Shown one piece after another: positions 2,596-9,800 of a DNA stretch of 63,192 nucleotides. Source of the DNA: an uncultured Bacteroidota bacterium (lineage in GTDB: Bacteria > Bacteroidota > Bacteroidia > Bacteroidales > P3); assembly GCA_902784465.1 (NCBI GenBank), contig CACZUZ010000006.1:1-63192 (forward strand). The letters are read 5' to 3'. How positions within the stretch are numbered: position 1 is the stretch's first letter; each line of letters starts with the position of its first letter. The notes under the pieces were generated by a model. It saw only the letters and a program-made list of their open reading frames with translations, was not told where the DNA came from and did not search any database. A program made the position numbers and the translations under genes.

Positions 2596-4776
2596 ATGAT
2601 AGGAAAGAGAACACTCAAAAGAATAGCTCTTTTGGCCACACTGGTCGCATTTGTTGGATGCCAAAAAGAGGAGAGAGAGTTTTTCACTGCAACCACACAG
2701 GACTATTCTGCAACAACAAAAGTACACATAGCCAGCGGCAACCAAAACTCCATCGCCTACTGGGACAATGGCGACCAGGTGATGATCAACGGCACCACGC
2801 ACAGCGTCACAATTGAAGCCAGCAACAGCAATACCGCCAAAATAGCTGCCGAAGGCGTCAGTGCCTACGGTGAGAAATACTACGCTGCCTACCCAGCCAA
2901 CCGTGCCACAATGAGCGGTAGCACAGTCACTTTTGACATCCCCTACAGCGAGAAATATACCACTAACAGCAGTGGTCAACAGCTTGTCAACAACATCATG
3001 GTAGCCAAAAGCGACGGCACCAAACTTGCATTTCAGAATGCAGGAGCCATGCTCCATTTCAGCGTGAAAGGCAGCAGTAACGGTGTCGGGCAGCTGTTAG
3101 CCATCGAGGTTTCGTGCGACCGTCCCCTATGCGGACAGCTAACGGTAGACATGTCAGGCAGTACCGCGAACAGCACCCTTGTCGGGTCACCATCAGACAC
3201 GGCACGAACATTGTTATTCGACGAACCATACACATTGACATCAACACCCAAAGATTTTTATCTCAACATTCCGGCACTGACAGGAGCAACAAAATTTCGT
3301 GTGAGATACATCCTCAAGAACGGTTCAAATCTAAGAATATTCGACAAAACCAAAACCGCAGACATTACCTTCACAAAAGGTTGCATATACTCTTTTGGTC
3401 AAGACATCTATGACGGCAGTAGTACATTCACATTCGCCGGGAATGCCGGGACGATGGTGACTCCAGGCACTGGAGACAACCCGCTGAAGATAACGTCAGG
3501 AGATATATTTACAGCCTCAGCGTATTATTTCGGCACAGCCGGCCGACAGTTTATCCTCGACCGGGACATTACCGTCACTTCCAGTGTCACCACGCTGAAA
3601 GCCACATTAGACGGCAACGGTCACACCATAACCTTAGGCAGCAGTAATTCCCTCTTCCAAAGCATCGACGGAGGCACAGTAAAGAATCTGACTGTAGACG
3701 GCACCATCTCGTCTCCCACTTGTGTCAACTATCGTTTCGGGGCCATTGCCTGCGAGGCAAAAAACTACGCAACCCTTGAGAACTGCACCAACAAAGCAAC
3801 CATCACCTGTATACAAGGCAAGAACAACAACAACACAATAGTTGGCGGAATATGTGCGTACGTGAACAGCAGCACCATTAATGAATGTCGTAACGAAGGA
3901 GAAATCAGCACCGACGCACAATACACTGGTGGTATTGCCGGATATTGCAATAGTCTGAAATCTATTAATGGGTGCAGCAATAGCGAACCCGTCAACGTAA
4001 CCATAGCAAATGGCGAGAGCCGAGATATATTTGTTGGAGGCCTGATTGGGAACATCTCCCTATTAAGCAGCGGAACCCTGAAGGCCGAAAACTGCCAAAA
4101 CTATGGTGAAATAACCATTAGCGGAACAACATCAAAAGACATCTACTGTGGTGGCTGCTTTGGACAAGCGACAGCATCATCTTCGTTCAGCATAGAGAAA
4201 TGCAGCAATATGGGATCTATAACCTGTAATATGACATCATCTGGAGAAATGTATTTCGGCGGCGTATTGGGGAGCGACGGAAGCGGAGGTGAGTCAATAA
4301 TGCTCAATTGCTATAACGAAGGCTCTATTGGAAATACATCGATCAAGCTTGCCGGTGGACTTCTCGGACGCAGTCAAAGAATGAGCATCGCCAACAGTTA
4401 CGCATTCTGTAATATAACCGCCAGTACGGCGGCAGGTCTTGTGGCGGACGGGGCAACGCTTCAGACAATAGTAACGATAAACAATTGCTACTACTTTGGC
4501 AGGCTTACATCCAACAGTCCAAGCACTAAATACGGAATAGCCGGTTCTTCTGCCGATGCCAGCCATCGCATGGAACTAACGTACTGCCACCATCCGAAAG
4601 GGAAAGGTATAGCGAACTTCTGCGGAGCCAACAGCATAGCCTACGGCACCTGTGATTCAGTCCTTACTGCCACAGATGCGGGAATGTTGACCTCATTAAA
4701 TGAACACAAGCCAACAGGAGGTAACGGATGGACTACCGGCAGCGACCATATCGTTATCCAATCGGGGAAACGTTAG
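2596..4776 (+). CDS. Fimbrillin-like lipoprotein with GLUG-type repeats
   Basis: The N-terminus is a lipoprotein signal with lipobox cysteine at residue 22 (FVGC). Residues 25 to about 270 resemble Bacteroidales fimbrillin-like domains, including the AYWDNGDQV strand and the KYYAAYPA strand. Residues about 310-640 are a run of repeats alternating GG-I-AG turns with NC-N-G-I strands, the pattern of GLUG-type beta-helix repeats. It is therefore probably an outer-surface lipoprotein, perhaps a pilus tip or adhesin component. No fimbrial operon partners are next to it. Its 3' end overlaps the convergent radical SAM gene by four bases. The exact role is unknown. Confidence 0.75.
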   Translation: MIGKRTLKRIALLATLVAFVGCQKEEREFFTATTQDYSATTKVHIASGNQNSIAYWDNGDQVMINGTTHSVTIEASNSNTAKIAAEGVSAYGEKYYAAYPANRATMSGSTVTFDIPYSEKYTTNSSGQQLVNNIMVAKSDGTKLAFQNAGAMLHFSVKGSSNGVGQLLAIEVSCDRPLCGQLTVDMSGSTANSTLVGSPSDTARTLLFDEPYTLTSTPKDFYLNIPALTGATKFRVRYILKNGSNLRIFDKTKTADITFTKGCIYSFGQDIYDGSSTFTFAGNAGTMVTPGTGDNPLKITSGDIFTASAYYFGTAGRQFILDRDITVTSSVTTLKATLDGNGHTITLGSSNSLFQSIDGGTVKNLTVDGTISSPTCVNYRFGAIACEAKNYATLENCTNKATITCIQGKNNNNTIVGGICAYVNSSTINECRNEGEISTDAQYTGGIAGYCNSLKSINGCSNSEPVNVTIANGESRDIFVGGLIGNISLLSSGTLKAENCQNYGEITISGTTSKDIYCGGCFGQATASSSFSIEKCSNMGSITCNMTSSGEMYFGGVLGSDGSGGESIMLNCYNEGSIGNTSIKLAGGLLGRSQRMSIANSYAFCNITASTAAGLVADGATLQTIVTINNCYYFGRLTSNSPSTKYGIAGSSADASHRMELTYCHHPKGKGIANFCGANSIAYGTCDSVLTATDAGMLTSLNEHKPTGGNGWTTGSDHIVIQSGKR

Positions 4777-5855
4777 TTGCCCATCAACCGATGGTAGTGG
4801 CAAAACAGCAGTTCCTCGTTGTTGTCGTATAGGTGCATGCCACTGCCCTTGCAGTATTTGAAAAAGTCGCACTCTCGGCACTGACCCTTGCGAGTCCACG
4901 AATGGTCACGGAATTTTTGGAAACGGTTCTGCCATACGTCCCAGAGGTTGTCTTTGTAGATATTACCCTGATGGAAATTTGAACGAATAGAGGTGCATCC
5001 TGAAATGGAGCCATCGACAAGCACCGATGCGACATTGATGCCAGCACGGCAATGGAAATAATAGTCGCGCGCCCTACCTTCATACTGCCCGAGGAAACCC
5101 TCACAACCATAGTTGGCATGTATGCGACCCTCTTCGCGTACTTTTTCGATAAAAGCGAAAAGACCACGAAACTGACTGTCGTTCAGTTGTAATTCATTAT
5201 TATCGGCGGCGCGACCCATGGGGAATATAGAAAAAAGTCGCCAATTACGCACACCTATTGAGACAAGGTACTCCTTGAACTCATCCAGACGCCCATAGTT
5301 GCGGGGGTTGACGCAGGTCACGATGTCCCACACCAGGTCGGGAGTGCGCGTCAACAAGCGTACGGCATGGTCGGTACGTTCGAAGCTCTTTTCATTCCTG
5401 CGAATCCAGTTATGATCGTCGGCGAAGCCGTCGAAAGAGACGGTAATAGAGTGCATGCCACTTCGCAACAGGCTGTCCAGCCTTTTTTCGTCAAGCAATA
5501 GTCCATTGGTAACCAACCCCCAAGGGAAGCCACGTCTATACAGCTCTAGGCCCACATCTTCAATATCGTCGCGGACCAGGGCTTCACCACCGGTGAATGT
5601 GACAAAGGTTTTGTTAGGATTAACATGTGGAGTGATGTCGTCAATAGCCTTAAAGAAATCTTTTGCTGGCATGTCGGGCGTGGAAGCTGCCTGTTTACAA
5701 TCGCTGCCACAATGGCGGCAGTTCATGTTGCAGCGCAAAGTACATTCCCAAAACAGATTGCGAAGTTCGTGGATCTGAGCCTCATTCTCACAAATACGGC
5801 TATGCAGTCCCAACGCGAGACGTTTTTTGAAAGACAACGATTTCTTCTCGTTCAT
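4773..5855 (-). CDS. Radical SAM/SPASM-like protein of the rSAM/lipoprotein system (TIGR04133-like)
   Basis: This 360-residue protein carries the radical SAM cluster motif CNMNCRHC with cysteines at 42, 46 and 49, which binds the SAM-activating 4Fe-4S cluster. The C-terminal part has seven further cysteines (251, 269, 287, 326, 329, 335, 352), a SPASM-like pattern able to hold auxiliary clusters. It overlaps the upstream lipoprotein gene by four bases (ATGA), so the two are translationally coupled. From memory this pairing matches the TIGR04133 radical SAM and TIGR04134 lipoprotein families of gut Bacteroidetes, whose chemistry is not established. A modification of the partner lipoprotein is an inference. 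Other SPASM maturases are the main alternative. Confidence 0.85.
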   Translation of the reverse strand: MNEKKSLSFKKRLALGLHSRICENEAQIHELRNLFWECTLRCNMNCRHCGSDCKQAASTPDMPAKDFFKAIDDITPHVNPNKTFVTFTGGEALVRDDIEDVGLELYRRGFPWGLVTNGLLLDEKRLDSLLRSGMHSITVSFDGFADDHNWIRRNEKSFERTDHAVRLLTRTPDLVWDIVTCVNPRNYGRLDEFKEYLVSIGVRNWRLFSIFPMGRAADNNELQLNDSQFRGLFAFIEKVREEGRIHANYGCEGFLGQYEGRARDYYFHCRAGINVASVLVDGSISGCTSIRSNFHQGNIYKDNLWDVWQNRFQKFRDHSWTRKGQCRECDFFKYCKGSGMHLYDNNEELLFCHYHRLMGN

Positions 5856-6517
5856 TTCTTCTTGCGTTTCATCTTGATAGCCACCTCAGCGTTCTTAATG
5901 CCAAGATTCCATTGCGACACCGGTTTGTCACCACTTTCGGGGTCGCCAAACTGTACGTCGACGAGCTGATTCTGAAACGAACCGTTTTTGGAGCCATCGA
6001 TGTCACGGACCAACACTCTCATCGTTTCCCACGGACGGTCAGAGCCGTTAACCTCGAAGTTGCCCTTCTCATCGGTAGTATCGCTCATGCGACGCATCTC
6101 TGATTTCCAATACTCATTATCAGGCAGGTTATCGGGGTCAATCCTGCTGTCAATCAGTATGACTTGCATGCCCTTTACAGGCTTGCCATTGGGGTCGGTG
6201 ACACGACCTTTAACACAAAAGTCTACAGTCGGCACCCCATAGACTGTCACCTGAGGCTCACGGGGTTGCGGGGGAACGACAGTTGGGGCAGGTTGCTGCG
6301 AATCAGCAGGAGATTGAGTCACAGCATTGCTGTCGGCATATTCTCTTAGCGGGACGCCGTACATAGGCACAAGCACATTCTCGTCGATGCGATGCGGCTC
6401 TTTTGTGCCTTTGTCGCCAGCTGCCATCTCTTTGCTGTGACGGCAAGCCGTGAGACCGAGAATGCTCATTGCCGTGACAATCAGCCAGTTTTTAAATTTA
6501 AGGTATCGAATTTTCAT
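5852..6517 (-). CDS. Radical SAM-associated lipoprotein (TIGR04134-like)
   Basis: This 221-residue protein starts with a lipoprotein signal whose lipobox ends LTAC at cysteine 25. A Pro/Gln-rich linker (about 66-90) separates two copies of a YGVP motif, MYGVP at 52-56 and VYGVP at 92-96. After the second copy comes a single carboxypeptidase-regulatory-like beta domain beginning CVKGRVTDPNGKPVKG (101-116). The C-terminus is very basic (KMKRKKK). The gene is first in a two-gene operon with the radical SAM protein, which overlaps it by four bases. The duplicated YGVP element beside the linker is a plausible modification site, but that is inference. The protein is expected to sit in a membrane, periplasmic or surface facing. 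Confidence 0.8.
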   Translation of the reverse strand: MKIRYLKFKNWLIVTAMSILGLTACRHSKEMAAGDKGTKEPHRIDENVLVPMYGVPLREYADSNAVTQSPADSQQPAPTVVPPQPREPQVTVYGVPTVDFCVKGRVTDPNGKPVKGMQVILIDSRIDPDNLPDNEYWKSEMRRMSDTTDEKGNFEVNGSDRPWETMRVLVRDIDGSKNGSFQNQLVDVQFGDPESGDKPVSQWNLGIKNAEVAIKMKRKKK

Positions 6518-6628: not shown

Positions 6629-7666
6629 ATGGATAGAATACTAACTATCAGCACCAAACCGATAGTCATTGCAGGACCATGCAGTGCCGAAAACCCTATG
6701 CAACTACAGCAAATAGCCGCTTCTATCGCCAAAGACGACCGCATATCCATGATGCGATGCGGAGTATGGAAGCCACGCACTCGACCAGGAGGCTTTGAGG
6801 GCATGGGAGAGCCAGCGTTGCGATGGATTTCAGACTTGCGAAAAACATACCCCACAATGCGTTTCTGCTGCGAGGTGGCTCGTCCTGAGCATATTGAACT
6901 ATGCTTACAATATAGCATGGACGCTGTGTGGATTGGTGCCCGCACGAGTGTCAATCCGTTCCTGATGGGCGAGCTTGCCGAAGCCCTTCGGGGCACCAAT
7001 CTTGCCGTGATGGTGAAAAACCCCATCACCCCCGACGTGGACCTCTGGGTAGGAGCCGTCGAGAGACTGCATGCTGTAGGAATAGAGGACTTGGCAGCCA
7101 TCCATCGCGGTTTTGCCACATACAACAATCTTGGTTATCGCAACAACCCACTATGGGAGATACCTATAGAGATGAAACGCCGGATGCCAAAACTGCCGTT
7201 GCTATGCGACCCTAGCCATATAGGTGGCCGCAGCGAACTCGTGGCCCAACTATCGCAGATGGCACTCGACCTCCATTTCGACGGACTGATGATTGAATGC
7301 CACCCATCGCCTGACGATGCGTTGACCGACAGTCTCCAGCAAATCCGACCCAGCGAACTCACCACGCTGCTCGACAGCCTCAAGATAAGGCAGCAGGGGA
7401 CCACTCCTGGCGAGATGCGACGGTTGCGCGAAGAGCTGGACATGATTGACACGCAACTGCTCGAGCTATTGAGCCGACGCATGAAGATTTCTTTCGCCAT
7501 AGGCAACATAAAACGCAAGCACAACATGCCCATTTTCCAGCCTGAACGTTGGCAACAAGTTCTTGACAAACAGCTGGAGAAAGGTCGAAGTCTGGGGCTC
7601 GACGCCAATTTTGTAAAGGAGCTCAGCGAGAAAATACACGGCGAAAGCCTTAGACAGCAAGAGTAA
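6629..7666 (+). CDS. Bifunctional DAHP synthase / type II chorismate mutase
   Basis: The first domain condenses phosphoenolpyruvate with erythrose 4-phosphate, the entry step of the shikimate pathway. The second converts chorismate to prephenate. The DAHP synthase part shows IAGPCSAE (14-21), KPRTRPG (48-54), GARTSVNPF and DPSHIGG. The mutase domain fills about residues 257-345 and includes the helix LREELDMIDTQLLELLSRR. This fusion is the usual form in Bacteroidetes, where the mutase often makes the synthase sensitive to prephenate. Here it stands alone, without pheA, tyrA or an aminotransferase beside it. aroQ and aroK lie far downstream in this window. A strong terminator follows. Confidence 0.92.
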   Translation: MDRILTISTKPIVIAGPCSAENPMQLQQIAASIAKDDRISMMRCGVWKPRTRPGGFEGMGEPALRWISDLRKTYPTMRFCCEVARPEHIELCLQYSMDAVWIGARTSVNPFLMGELAEALRGTNLAVMVKNPITPDVDLWVGAVERLHAVGIEDLAAIHRGFATYNNLGYRNNPLWEIPIEMKRRMPKLPLLCDPSHIGGRSELVAQLSQMALDLHFDGLMIECHPSPDDALTDSLQQIRPSELTTLLDSLKIRQQGTTPGEMRRLREELDMIDTQLLELLSRRMKISFAIGNIKRKHNMPIFQPERWQQVLDKQLEKGRSLGLDANFVKELSEKIHGESLRQQE

Positions 7667-7697: not shown

Positions 7698-7727
7698 AAA
7701 GCAGCCAGAGACGGCTGCTTTTTTTTT
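7698..7727 (+). terminator. Rho-independent terminator after aroF-CM
   Basis: A 6-bp GC-rich stem (GCAGCC / GGCTGC) with a six-base loop is followed by nine T residues and preceded by an A run, so it could also work on the other strand for rpmA. Confidence 0.85.
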
Positions 7728-7728
7728 C

Positions 7729-7801
7729 GTGACCGAGATCGGTCACTGTTTTTTCGTGACCGAGATCGGTCACTGTTTTTTTCGTGACCGAGATCGGTCA
7801 C
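7729..7801. repeat. Three tandem copies of an 18-bp palindrome separated by T runs
   Basis: GTGACCGAGATCGGTCAC occurs at 7729-7746, 7756-7773 and 7784-7801. Each copy is an 8-bp inverted repeat around GA. The spacers are T-rich, so each copy plus its T run looks like a terminator on the plus strand, and the A runs ahead of the copies give the minus strand a U tract as well. The array lies between the convergent ends of aroF-CM and rpmA. It may be a multi-copy bidirectional terminator or a dyad bound by a protein. Confidence 0.8.
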
Positions 7802-7825
7802 GTTTTTTTTCTTTGTTCGATGGGG

Positions 7826-8594: not shown

Positions 8595-9800
8595 TCAAAA
8601 ATATTTTTTAACTTCACCATTGTCCTCACATTCTGTAAGGATTTGCCTTATTGTTTTTCGGAATTTCGGATGTCTATAATCGGGGATAATTTCATCGAGA
8701 GGCACAAGCACAAAACGGCGAGAGTGCATGCGAGGATGAGGCAGCAGAAGGTCATCAGTCTCTACAATCGCCGAATTGTAGAATATCAGGTCGATGTCTA
8801 TTGGGCGAGAGGAGTATTCCCTTGCAGGCTGTAGGGAATCGGAGCTGGCGTTTTTTATTTCGTCCTTTCTTATCCGACCAAGTTCTTTTTCAATATTCAA
8901 TGCCTCTACAAGCACCTCATGTGCGGAGAGGTCGGTGTCGACAACAACGGCTTGGTTCAAGAAGTTTTGCTCAGCCTCGAAGCCCCAAGGTTCGGTCTCG
9001 TATATGGAGGAAATGAGCGACACTGCCCCTATTCTTTTGCCTATCTCGGCAATGGCATTCATAAGAGTAGCCACGCGGTCGCCCTGATTGCCACCCAAAA
9101 GCAGGACCACACTATTATTTTTCCACCGTCCGAGATAGCTTTTGTTGATATCCTGGTGTTCGAGCAGCTGCAGGAAATCCTCACGTGGCACCTCTCTAGC
9201 GCCAAGGGATGCAAGATGTGAAGTGTACATCTGAGCGTCGACAAAACGGAAGCCATGCAGTTGCGCAAACTCAACCATCCTGGCGAAGGCCACCTTCGAA
9301 GCATCGGTGACAGTATGGAACATAGACTCGCCACAGAAATAGTCGCTCATACTGATACCATAAAGCCCACCGACAAGCCTGCCGTCGAGGAAAGTCTCGA
9401 AGGAGTGAGCAAAGCCCAAATCATGCATACGGCAATAGGATTCTATGAAGCGGTCGGATATCCATGAGCCAGCATCCTGTTTTTCGCGCTTCACAGAAGC
9501 ACAGGCATTGATGACATCCTTGAAGCAGGTGTCAACCCTCATCTCGAAACGGTTCGATGCGATAGTGCGGTGCAGGCTTTTCGAGCAACGGAATTCTTTG
9601 GGGAATAGCAACATACGCGGATCGGGAGAATACCAGTAGGTGTTGCCGCCGCCGTCATCGTACCAAGGGAAGATACCCATATAATAGGCATTCAGGAGCC
9701 AATCGGGCGACATGCCGCCGCCAAAAGCCAGGAACCCGTCAGCCTCGGACAGCCTGGGGTCGGGGAAACCCACCTGATCATCGTCTAGTCTGAAAACCAT
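8595..9800 (-). CDS. Fusion of leucyl/phenylalanyl-tRNA-protein transferase (Aat) and HPPK (FolK)
   Basis: One uninterrupted 401-codon frame encodes two complete enzymes. Residues 1 to about 228 are Aat, which adds Leu or Phe to N-terminal Arg/Lys for the N-end rule pathway: YYMGIFPW is at 39-46 and GGLYGISMSDYFCGESMF at 144-161. Residues about 230-401 are the folate enzyme HPPK: LLGGNQGDR (234-242), YETEPWGF (267-274), RPIDIDLIF (332-340) and LPHPRMHSRRF (353-363). The junction has almost no linker. The two activities are normally separate genes with unrelated roles. All key motifs look intact, so both halves are probably active. A frameshift artefact is unlikely because no frame change is needed. 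Confidence 0.9.
   Translation of the reverse strand: MVFRLDDDQVGFPDPRLSEADGFLAFGGGMSPDWLLNAYYMGIFPWYDDGGGNTYWYSPDPRMLLFPKEFRCSKSLHRTIASNRFEMRVDTCFKDVINACASVKREKQDAGSWISDRFIESYCRMHDLGFAHSFETFLDGRLVGGLYGISMSDYFCGESMFHTVTDASKVAFARMVEFAQLHGFRFVDAQMYTSHLASLGAREVPREDFLQLLEHQDINKSYLGRWKNNSVVLLLGGNQGDRVATLMNAIAEIGKRIGAVSLISSIYETEPWGFEAEQNFLNQAVVVDTDLSAHEVLVEALNIEKELGRIRKDEIKNASSDSLQPAREYSSRPIDIDLIFYNSAIVETDDLLLPHPRMHSRRFVLVPLDEIIPDYRHPKFRKTIRQILTECEDNGEVKKYF

Follow-up and report, generated by a model that had tools for sequence, protein, structure and literature searches.

The best-known radical S-adenosylmethionine (SAM) peptide maturases act on ribosomally synthesized and post-translationally modified peptides (RiPPs), the precursors of which are small and carry dedicated leaders. 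Among the described systems closest to the locus considered here are the spliceases. In the available portions of two publications, PlpXY excises tyramine from the sequence X-Y-G, with MYG and LYG as natural sites, and the Gly after the Tyr is described as needed for the PlpX reaction (PMC10533398; PMC11002830). The subject of this report is a two-gene operon in a stretch of 63,192 nucleotides (the window; contig CACZUZ010000006.1 of assembly GCA_902784465.1) from an uncultured Bacteroidota bacterium of the order Bacteroidales. One gene encodes a lipoprotein and the other a radical SAM enzyme with a SPASM-like tail. Comparison with related loci suggests, at the level of sequence, that the enzyme alters a Tyr-Gly motif before the lipoprotein is exported, perhaps cutting most of the tyrosine from the chain.

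In the accessible text of PMC11002830, PlpX is assigned to IPR026482, the loss of C8H9NO is said to amount to 135.0757 Da (135.068 Da when calculated from the formula), and the PlpX-type residue has already served in bioorthogonal labelling and in the inhibition of proteases. The genes of the window belong to the named pair TIGR04133 and TIGR04134, families that give no function. IPR026482 is taken here to be TIGR04103, nif11-class radical SAM maturase 3, which presumably places PlpX in that family. A literature search found no paper on the TIGR04133/TIGR04134 pair, and Scott et al. 2022 may bear on novelty. What is observed in the present work is family membership, gene linkage, conservation of the motif across scaffolds, a signal-peptide motif and the grouping of the enzyme with splicease relatives. 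Any biological role is something that we infer.

The enzyme gene (360 amino acids; 4773-5855) and the lipoprotein gene (221 amino acids; 5852-6517) both lie on the minus strand, as do all their parts located below, and they share the four bases 5852-5855. A previous sequence-only reading had claimed this overlap and had named the two families. Both points are borne out. In the profile searches the curated NCBIfam cut-offs are exceeded: the enzyme scores 590.8 bits against TIGR04133 (rSAM_w_lipo; cut-off 425) and the lipoprotein 85.9 bits against TIGR04134 (lipo_with_rSAM; cut-off 39.8), covering profile positions 31-150 of 150. The enzyme also passes the Pfam cut-offs for Radical_SAM (66.3 bits) and SPASM (PF13186; 36.9 bits, cut-off 21.5). 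The two YGVP motifs and proline-rich linker of the same reading can be located exactly. The first motif is MYGVPLREY (residues 52-60, 6338..6364; MYGVP at 52-56, 6350-6364), the second is VYGVPTVDF (residues 92-100, 6218..6244; VYGVP at 92-96, 6230-6244), and a Pro-rich stretch separates MYGVP from VYGVP. Both are proposed modification sites.

One clue to the target is how well the motif is conserved. Related loci were gathered that contain 139 TIGR04133-like enzyme open reading frames (ORFs), 121 of them distinct, and a lipoprotein profile was grown from the window lipoprotein without using the motif as a seed. It matched 188 ORFs, and YG.P is present in 168. After removal of duplicates and of frames below 100 amino acids there were 145 TIGR04134-like ORFs, of which 135 have YG.P, eight have YG alone and two have neither (YG anywhere, 143/145); some of the ten without YG.P are apparent chance profile matches, or have a YG distant from the signal peptide. 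Among the remaining ORFs of 200 or more amino acids at the same loci, antisense included, YG.P accounts for 18 of 672 YG occurrences, and YG.P...[FYW] was seen in two. The motif is therefore present more often than chance would have it. Across 172 YG.P motifs, the residue seven after the Tyr is aromatic in 160 (Tyr 83, Phe 77), and at the position preceding the Tyr, Glu (75), Met (57) and Val (20) predominate.

The motif is also linked to the enzyme gene. Under a strict lipobox rule, an upstream YG lipoprotein accompanies 107 of the 121 distinct enzymes (the strict set holds 150 ORFs, 24 of which the profile did not find, several of these being chance matches). A lenient rule, which accepts a YG lipoprotein or a TIGR04134-like ORF, is satisfied at 118/121 loci. 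Two of the exceptions (L039 and L115) begin near contig ends and the third (L118) has a 57-residue remnant.

When the YGVP copies are compared across homologues, the linker copy MYGVP is identical in ten aligned close relatives (window included) while the surrounding linker is variable. Further relatives have MYGGP (L009, L020), MYGVQ (L010, L014), MYGAI (L021) or LYGVP (L022, L023); at this position YG is thus firmer than P. In the second motif Y93, G94 and P96 are invariant in all 31 rows of the lipoprotein alignment (A4). Conservation thus favours the YGVP repeats, one of the candidate targets put forward by the sequence-only reading, with action of the enzyme on the lipoprotein being the presumed step. 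Copy number and position of the motif vary among linkers, loops and tails. Successive YG pairs are most often spaced by seven residues (10 cases, for example KYGGPPAEYGVLTAEYGVPHARF from L165) and in nine cases, related sequences, by 38.

Partner lipoproteins without the TIGR04134 domain are informative in another way. Frames of 84-86 amino acids with two MYG motifs occur at L069, L072 and L077, and the same short protein stands at the end of a longer frame at L076, again with two MYG motifs. At L106, L109, L111 and L114 the partner is a coiled-coil-like lipoprotein in which motifs such as VYGSPE number between one and three, and L080 has frames of 49 and 66 amino acids (EYGVPYTSF, MYGPLHVEY). 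Pfam gave no family above cut-off in the three tested partners that lack the domain. The features common to TIGR04134, short and coiled-coil partners are a signal peptide, a lipobox and YG (mostly YG.P). This comparison across scaffolds points to the YG motif as the putative substrate site, and it is very probable that the enzyme acts there. Two probable partners that keep YG have no lipobox Cys. In L003 the sequence VLGF stands before the place where the Cys would be, and the C-terminal end of L163 resembles what we take to be a type IX sorting domain.

The signal peptide itself carries a motif. In the window it spans residues 1-24 (6446..6517), with KNW and then LGL ahead of Cys25 in the lipobox LTAC. 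[LFM]G[FLIMV] lies no more than ten residues before the lipobox Cys in 115/126 profile-found lipoproteins versus 3/74 other lipobox ORFs at the same loci, counts in which the sequences are related and the background set contains some non-lipoproteins. Perhaps, then, the signal peptide serves as a leader-like recognition element. For a small second lipoprotein at L006, no counterpart was found in the window genome (84% complete) beyond the signal peptide of the window lipoprotein.

The next link is between the enzyme and the splicease relatives. The radical SAM cluster motif CxxxCxxC (C42, C46, C49; 5709..5732) is followed by G50. In a 25-row alignment G50, G253 and S289 are common to all 12 TIGR04133 rows and all six splicease-like ones, and the seven others have none of them. 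A first tree (27 rows, with PqqE and L159) joins TIGR04133 to TIGR04103 (Nostoc), TIGR03913 (GDL) and unnamed relatives at 85/58. In a second tree of 23 rows, which leaves out PqqE, L159, MftC and L161, the branch that unites TIGR04133 with splicease relatives reaches 100/99, and the alternative in which TIGR04133 pairs with a single AhbD-like row fails the approximately unbiased test (p-AU 0.0015). A third tree of 29 rows restores MftC and L161, adds seven relatives by TIGR04103 score and omits PqqE, L159 and three redundant rows; 10 TIGR04133 and 12 splicease-like rows stand apart from seven others, again at 100/99. A grouping of TIGR04133 with L090 and L173 is neither demonstrated nor rejected in this tree (p-AU 0.316). 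The enzymes of L090 and L173 share two extra TIGR04133 cysteines, C53 (HCGSxC) and C251 (before a GF/GY motif), and they retain CX2CX5CX3C. The TIGR04133 alignment gives profile matches to SkfB, anSME, PqqE and SuiB, and a model of the enzyme of a close relative (L018) matches the same four in fold. When relatives are scored against the profiles in turn, TIGR04133 comes third for the enzymes of Aureibacter and Agathobacter and fourth for that of Nostoc. On viral contigs the matches to the Nostoc enzyme, at 20 loci, were all distant (23-38% identity), and these loci were left out of the comparison.

The tail of the enzyme was only partly as predicted. The canonical SPASM pattern of seven cysteines is CX9-15GX4C...CX2CX5CX3C...C. 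The sequence-only reading had counted three cluster cysteines and seven in a SPASM-like tail, and these stand (the latter are C251, C269, C287, C326, C329, C335 and C352, the region from C269 to C352 being 4800..5051), but the canonical pattern does not. Six of its seven cysteines are present, the last Cys of CX2CX5CX3C being replaced by G339, which is invariant in 31 aligned enzymes. C251 is likewise invariant in the 31 and falls outside the pattern.

Several splicease relatives lie beside YG proteins. On a Nostoc plasmid (L087) the enzyme scores 853 bits against TIGR04103, above cut-off, and a 71-residue ORF overlaps the end of the enzyme gene. A separate Nif11-leader precursor at this locus ends in ALYGLPPELF, with YG, P at +3 and Phe at +7, the same pattern as MYGVPLREY in the window. 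The locus shows the gene layout described for PlpX systems in the available parts of the publications. Elsewhere, a 176-residue frame upstream of the L171 enzyme ends in LLYGTPPVPLYQAPSK and contains LYGTPP, with an aromatic residue at +8, and the enzymes of L168 and L169 adjoin DUF1843-like peptides with PYG, AYG or LYG. In G238, another genome of this order, a radical SAM gene of the splicease-like kind is directly followed by a 216-residue frame (L173:2949-3596) with six KYGYP, five of them KYGYPC, and no Pfam match.

How might such a system work? The enzyme would act in the cytoplasm on the lipoprotein precursor, recognizing its signal peptide (K-N-W ... L-G-[LF] before the lipobox) in place of a RiPP leader. 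It would work on X-Y-G-x-P-x-x-x-[YF] motifs in a flexible part of the lipoprotein, which would then be exported and lipidated, displaying one or two ketoamides. That the reaction is the one carried out by PlpX, tyramine excision, is suggested by analogy, through the grouping of the enzymes and the shared motif. We lean, with modest confidence, towards a splicease-like radical SAM/SPASM maturase of lipoprotein precursors that uses the signal peptide as its leader.

Several observations weigh against this. One set concerns kinship. The profile scores of the window enzyme fail to single out spliceases: TIGR04103 yields 107.6 bits (cut-off 725), less than TIGR04053 (114.1) and about as much as AhbD (107.2). 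The joining branch is only 85/58 when PqqE and L159 are included, and both were left out later; the splicease-like rows of the 29-row tree were picked by TIGR04103 scores, with most radical SAM/SPASM families unsampled. Another set concerns substrates. At E <= 0.01 the window lipoprotein has no NCBIfam match other than TIGR04134, and no Nif11 or NHLP leader. The wider clade does not keep YG throughout (the L170 core is VLYMAHSK, and some DUF1843 peptides have YM, as in PMYMAT), no YG precursor was seen beside L172 and L174, and none is evident near the Agathobacter enzyme. A phmmer search with the Nostoc 71-residue ORF matched only the Nostoc record (L087, L091), and no PlpY-type gene was found. 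Glu precedes the Tyr in 75/172 motifs, as against Met or Leu (or engineered Gly) at the PlpX sites in the text available. The tags in Table 1 of PMC10533398, as far as that source is accessible, contain LYGLPI or GYGLPI. At two sites in FtsZ the LYGLPI tag was not accepted, in contrast to a pair of longer tags with GYGLPI, and one tag, GAVAAGYGVVFPG, lacks P at +3. A model of the lipoprotein and enzyme of L018 as one joint frame has pLDDT (predicted local distance difference test) below 50 for residues 1-88, which makes it uninformative on docking of the motif. Finally, four points call for caution about the reaction and speak against filing the enzyme under TIGR04103: one SPASM Cys is missing, C251 is additional, there is no PlpY gene as far as was found, and the presumed substrate is a lipoprotein.

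What if the enzyme modifies YG by some other reaction, such as a cross-link from the Tyr to the residue two positions on, epimerization or dehydrogenation? Triceptides provide a precedent, as they contain a three-residue cyclophane in which Tyr is cross-linked to the residue two positions on. The motif evidence fits any Tyr-directed reaction, and YM replaces YG in some relatives. A change of chemistry is also conceivable in view of the SPASM region, where G339 in place of Cys and the invariant C251 set the enzyme apart from the splicease relatives. However, the residue two after the Tyr can be V, T, S, C, P, A or M, and with Pro among these, one fixed cross-link is ill-suited. The enzyme also groups with splicease relatives in the 29-row tree, and Gly after the Tyr, which is kept here, is what the accessible text on PlpX describes as a requirement. 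On balance a different reaction on the same motif is rather unlikely, although it is the strongest of the alternatives.

It is less probable still that YG is left unmodified and YG.P is a binding or structural element, while the enzyme has a different site of action or a different substrate. The window lipoprotein was modelled with a mean pLDDT of 80.9 and a poorly ordered linker. Both motifs lie outside the folded domain, where they could be a docking peptide; the second stands just before the first strand (97-107), which begins right after YGVP. But beyond signal peptide and lipobox no other common feature was seen among the partner types, and a YG partner accompanies nearly all the enzymes under the lenient rule and most under the strict one. 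The weakest alternative, a Cys or other residue within the regulatory-like domain as target, is very improbable: G104, V106, G152, P162, D172, G179 and G206 are invariant in A4, but column 101 is Cys in only 2/31 rows (window and L038) and several partners have no such domain, so that Cys101 and the domain, both candidates of the sequence-only reading, are not supported as targets.

The domain in question is transthyretin-like or carboxypeptidase-regulatory-like, and is predicted to form a beta fold over residues 97-215 (5873..6229). Its Pfam matches are below cut-off (CarboxypepD_reg, 25.6 bits against 32.3; TTR-52, 23.5 against 24.9), and the fold matches of the model, transthyretin-like and dioxygenase-associated, are weak (TMq about 0.3).

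The two families tend to occur together. In the window genome, 84% complete and in 88 contigs, there is a single match to TIGR04133 and there are three to TIGR04134. Besides the window lipoprotein gene, two TIGR04134 genes sit on other contigs and have the motifs AEYGCP and CEYGAP, and their products may be substrates too. Among 295 genomes of the order, with thresholds of E <= 1e-60 for TIGR04133 and E <= 1e-5 for TIGR04134, the former is present in 69, the latter in 55 and both in 47. TIGR04133 is present in 39 of the 40 genomes with TIGR04134 above cut-off (Fisher p 1.5e-28, with related genomes in the sample). The exception, G618, has two YG proteins (AQYGAI, CYGSP) and no TIGR04133 at its threshold. 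Conversely, 22 of the 69 TIGR04133 genomes have no TIGR04134 match at E <= 1e-5; in four of these (G397, G494, G592, G676) a coiled-coil lipoprotein adjoins the enzyme, and in G524 the only partner is the 57-residue remnant at L118. Three members of the family to which the window genome belongs (G472, G574, G663) have neither. In a whole-phylum sample TIGR04133 was found in 3/395 genomes. Loci with the pair include Bacteroides fragilis, Parabacteroides and Alistipes and, outside the phylum, a plasmid of Treponema saccharophilum where YG directly follows the lipobox Cys (SCYGMP). On a contig of a metagenome-assembled genome (L018:3371-5083) lipoprotein and enzyme are one open frame of 571 residues, which is either a fusion that exists in nature or the product of an erroneous base where the two genes meet.

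The chances are about even that TIGR04133 enzymes in general are lipoprotein spliceases, which would cut tyramine from Tyr-Gly with a signal peptide as leader. Many Bacteroidota of gut and rumen, and a Treponema, would then have backbone ketoamides in their envelope, where these could trap proteases or other nucleophiles. If this is true, there is a class of exported lipoproteins in gut and rumen Bacteroidota with a rewritten backbone that annotation does not predict and standard proteomics misses, and an effect in the envelope like labelling or protease inhibition would be a new function. Splicease kinship, three TIGR04134 genes to one enzyme gene and a conserved signal-peptide motif are what this adds to the sequence-only reading.

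The operon is flanked by one convergent and one divergent gene. The first encodes a predicted lipoprotein of 726 amino acids (2596-4776, plus strand), which overlaps the 3' end of the enzyme gene by four bases and has no NCBIfam or Pfam match at E <= 0.01. The second, upstream of the lipoprotein gene, encodes a DAHP synthase-chorismate mutase (6629-7666). After it, at 7720-7811, a unit of 27-28 bases that contains the inverted repeat TGACCGA..TCGGTCA is repeated in tandem, with about 3.2 copies. Farther on, a single ORF (8595-9800, minus strand) combines leucyl/phenylalanyl-tRNA-protein transferase and HPPK domains, both above the Pfam cut-offs. Promoter and terminator scans around the operon yielded nothing informative, and a search of the related loci for a third conserved gene returned mainly antisense ORFs.

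How does the window compare with known systems overall? With PlpXY and TIGR04103 it shares a radical SAM/SPASM enzyme that has Gly after the cluster Cys as well as G253 and S289, a place on the same side of a branch that is 100/99 in the two later trees and 85/58 in the first, and a partner with X-Y-G (MYG and VYG in the window) in which P at +3 and an aromatic residue at +7 recur in the Nostoc example. It differs in that the enzyme, far below the cut-off, is not a TIGR04103 member, has one SPASM Cys fewer and C251 extra, and is without a PlpY-type gene as far as was found, and in that a lipoprotein with a signal peptide replaces the substrate with a Nif11 or NHLP leader. The TIGR03913 GDL maturase with DUF1843 is on the same side of the branch, and several of its peptides have PYG, AYG or LYG; unlike the window lipoprotein these peptides are small, have no lipobox and in some cases have YM for YG. 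SkfB, anSME, PqqE and SuiB match the L018 model in fold, but identities in the ten best Foldseek rows lie between 14 and 22%. The NCBIfam pair TIGR04133/TIGR04134 is matched by the window genes, which are adjacent, overlapping and both above cut-off. Set against the TIGR04134 family, the window lipoprotein is distinguished by an N-terminal linker with a second motif, which it has in common with its close relatives.

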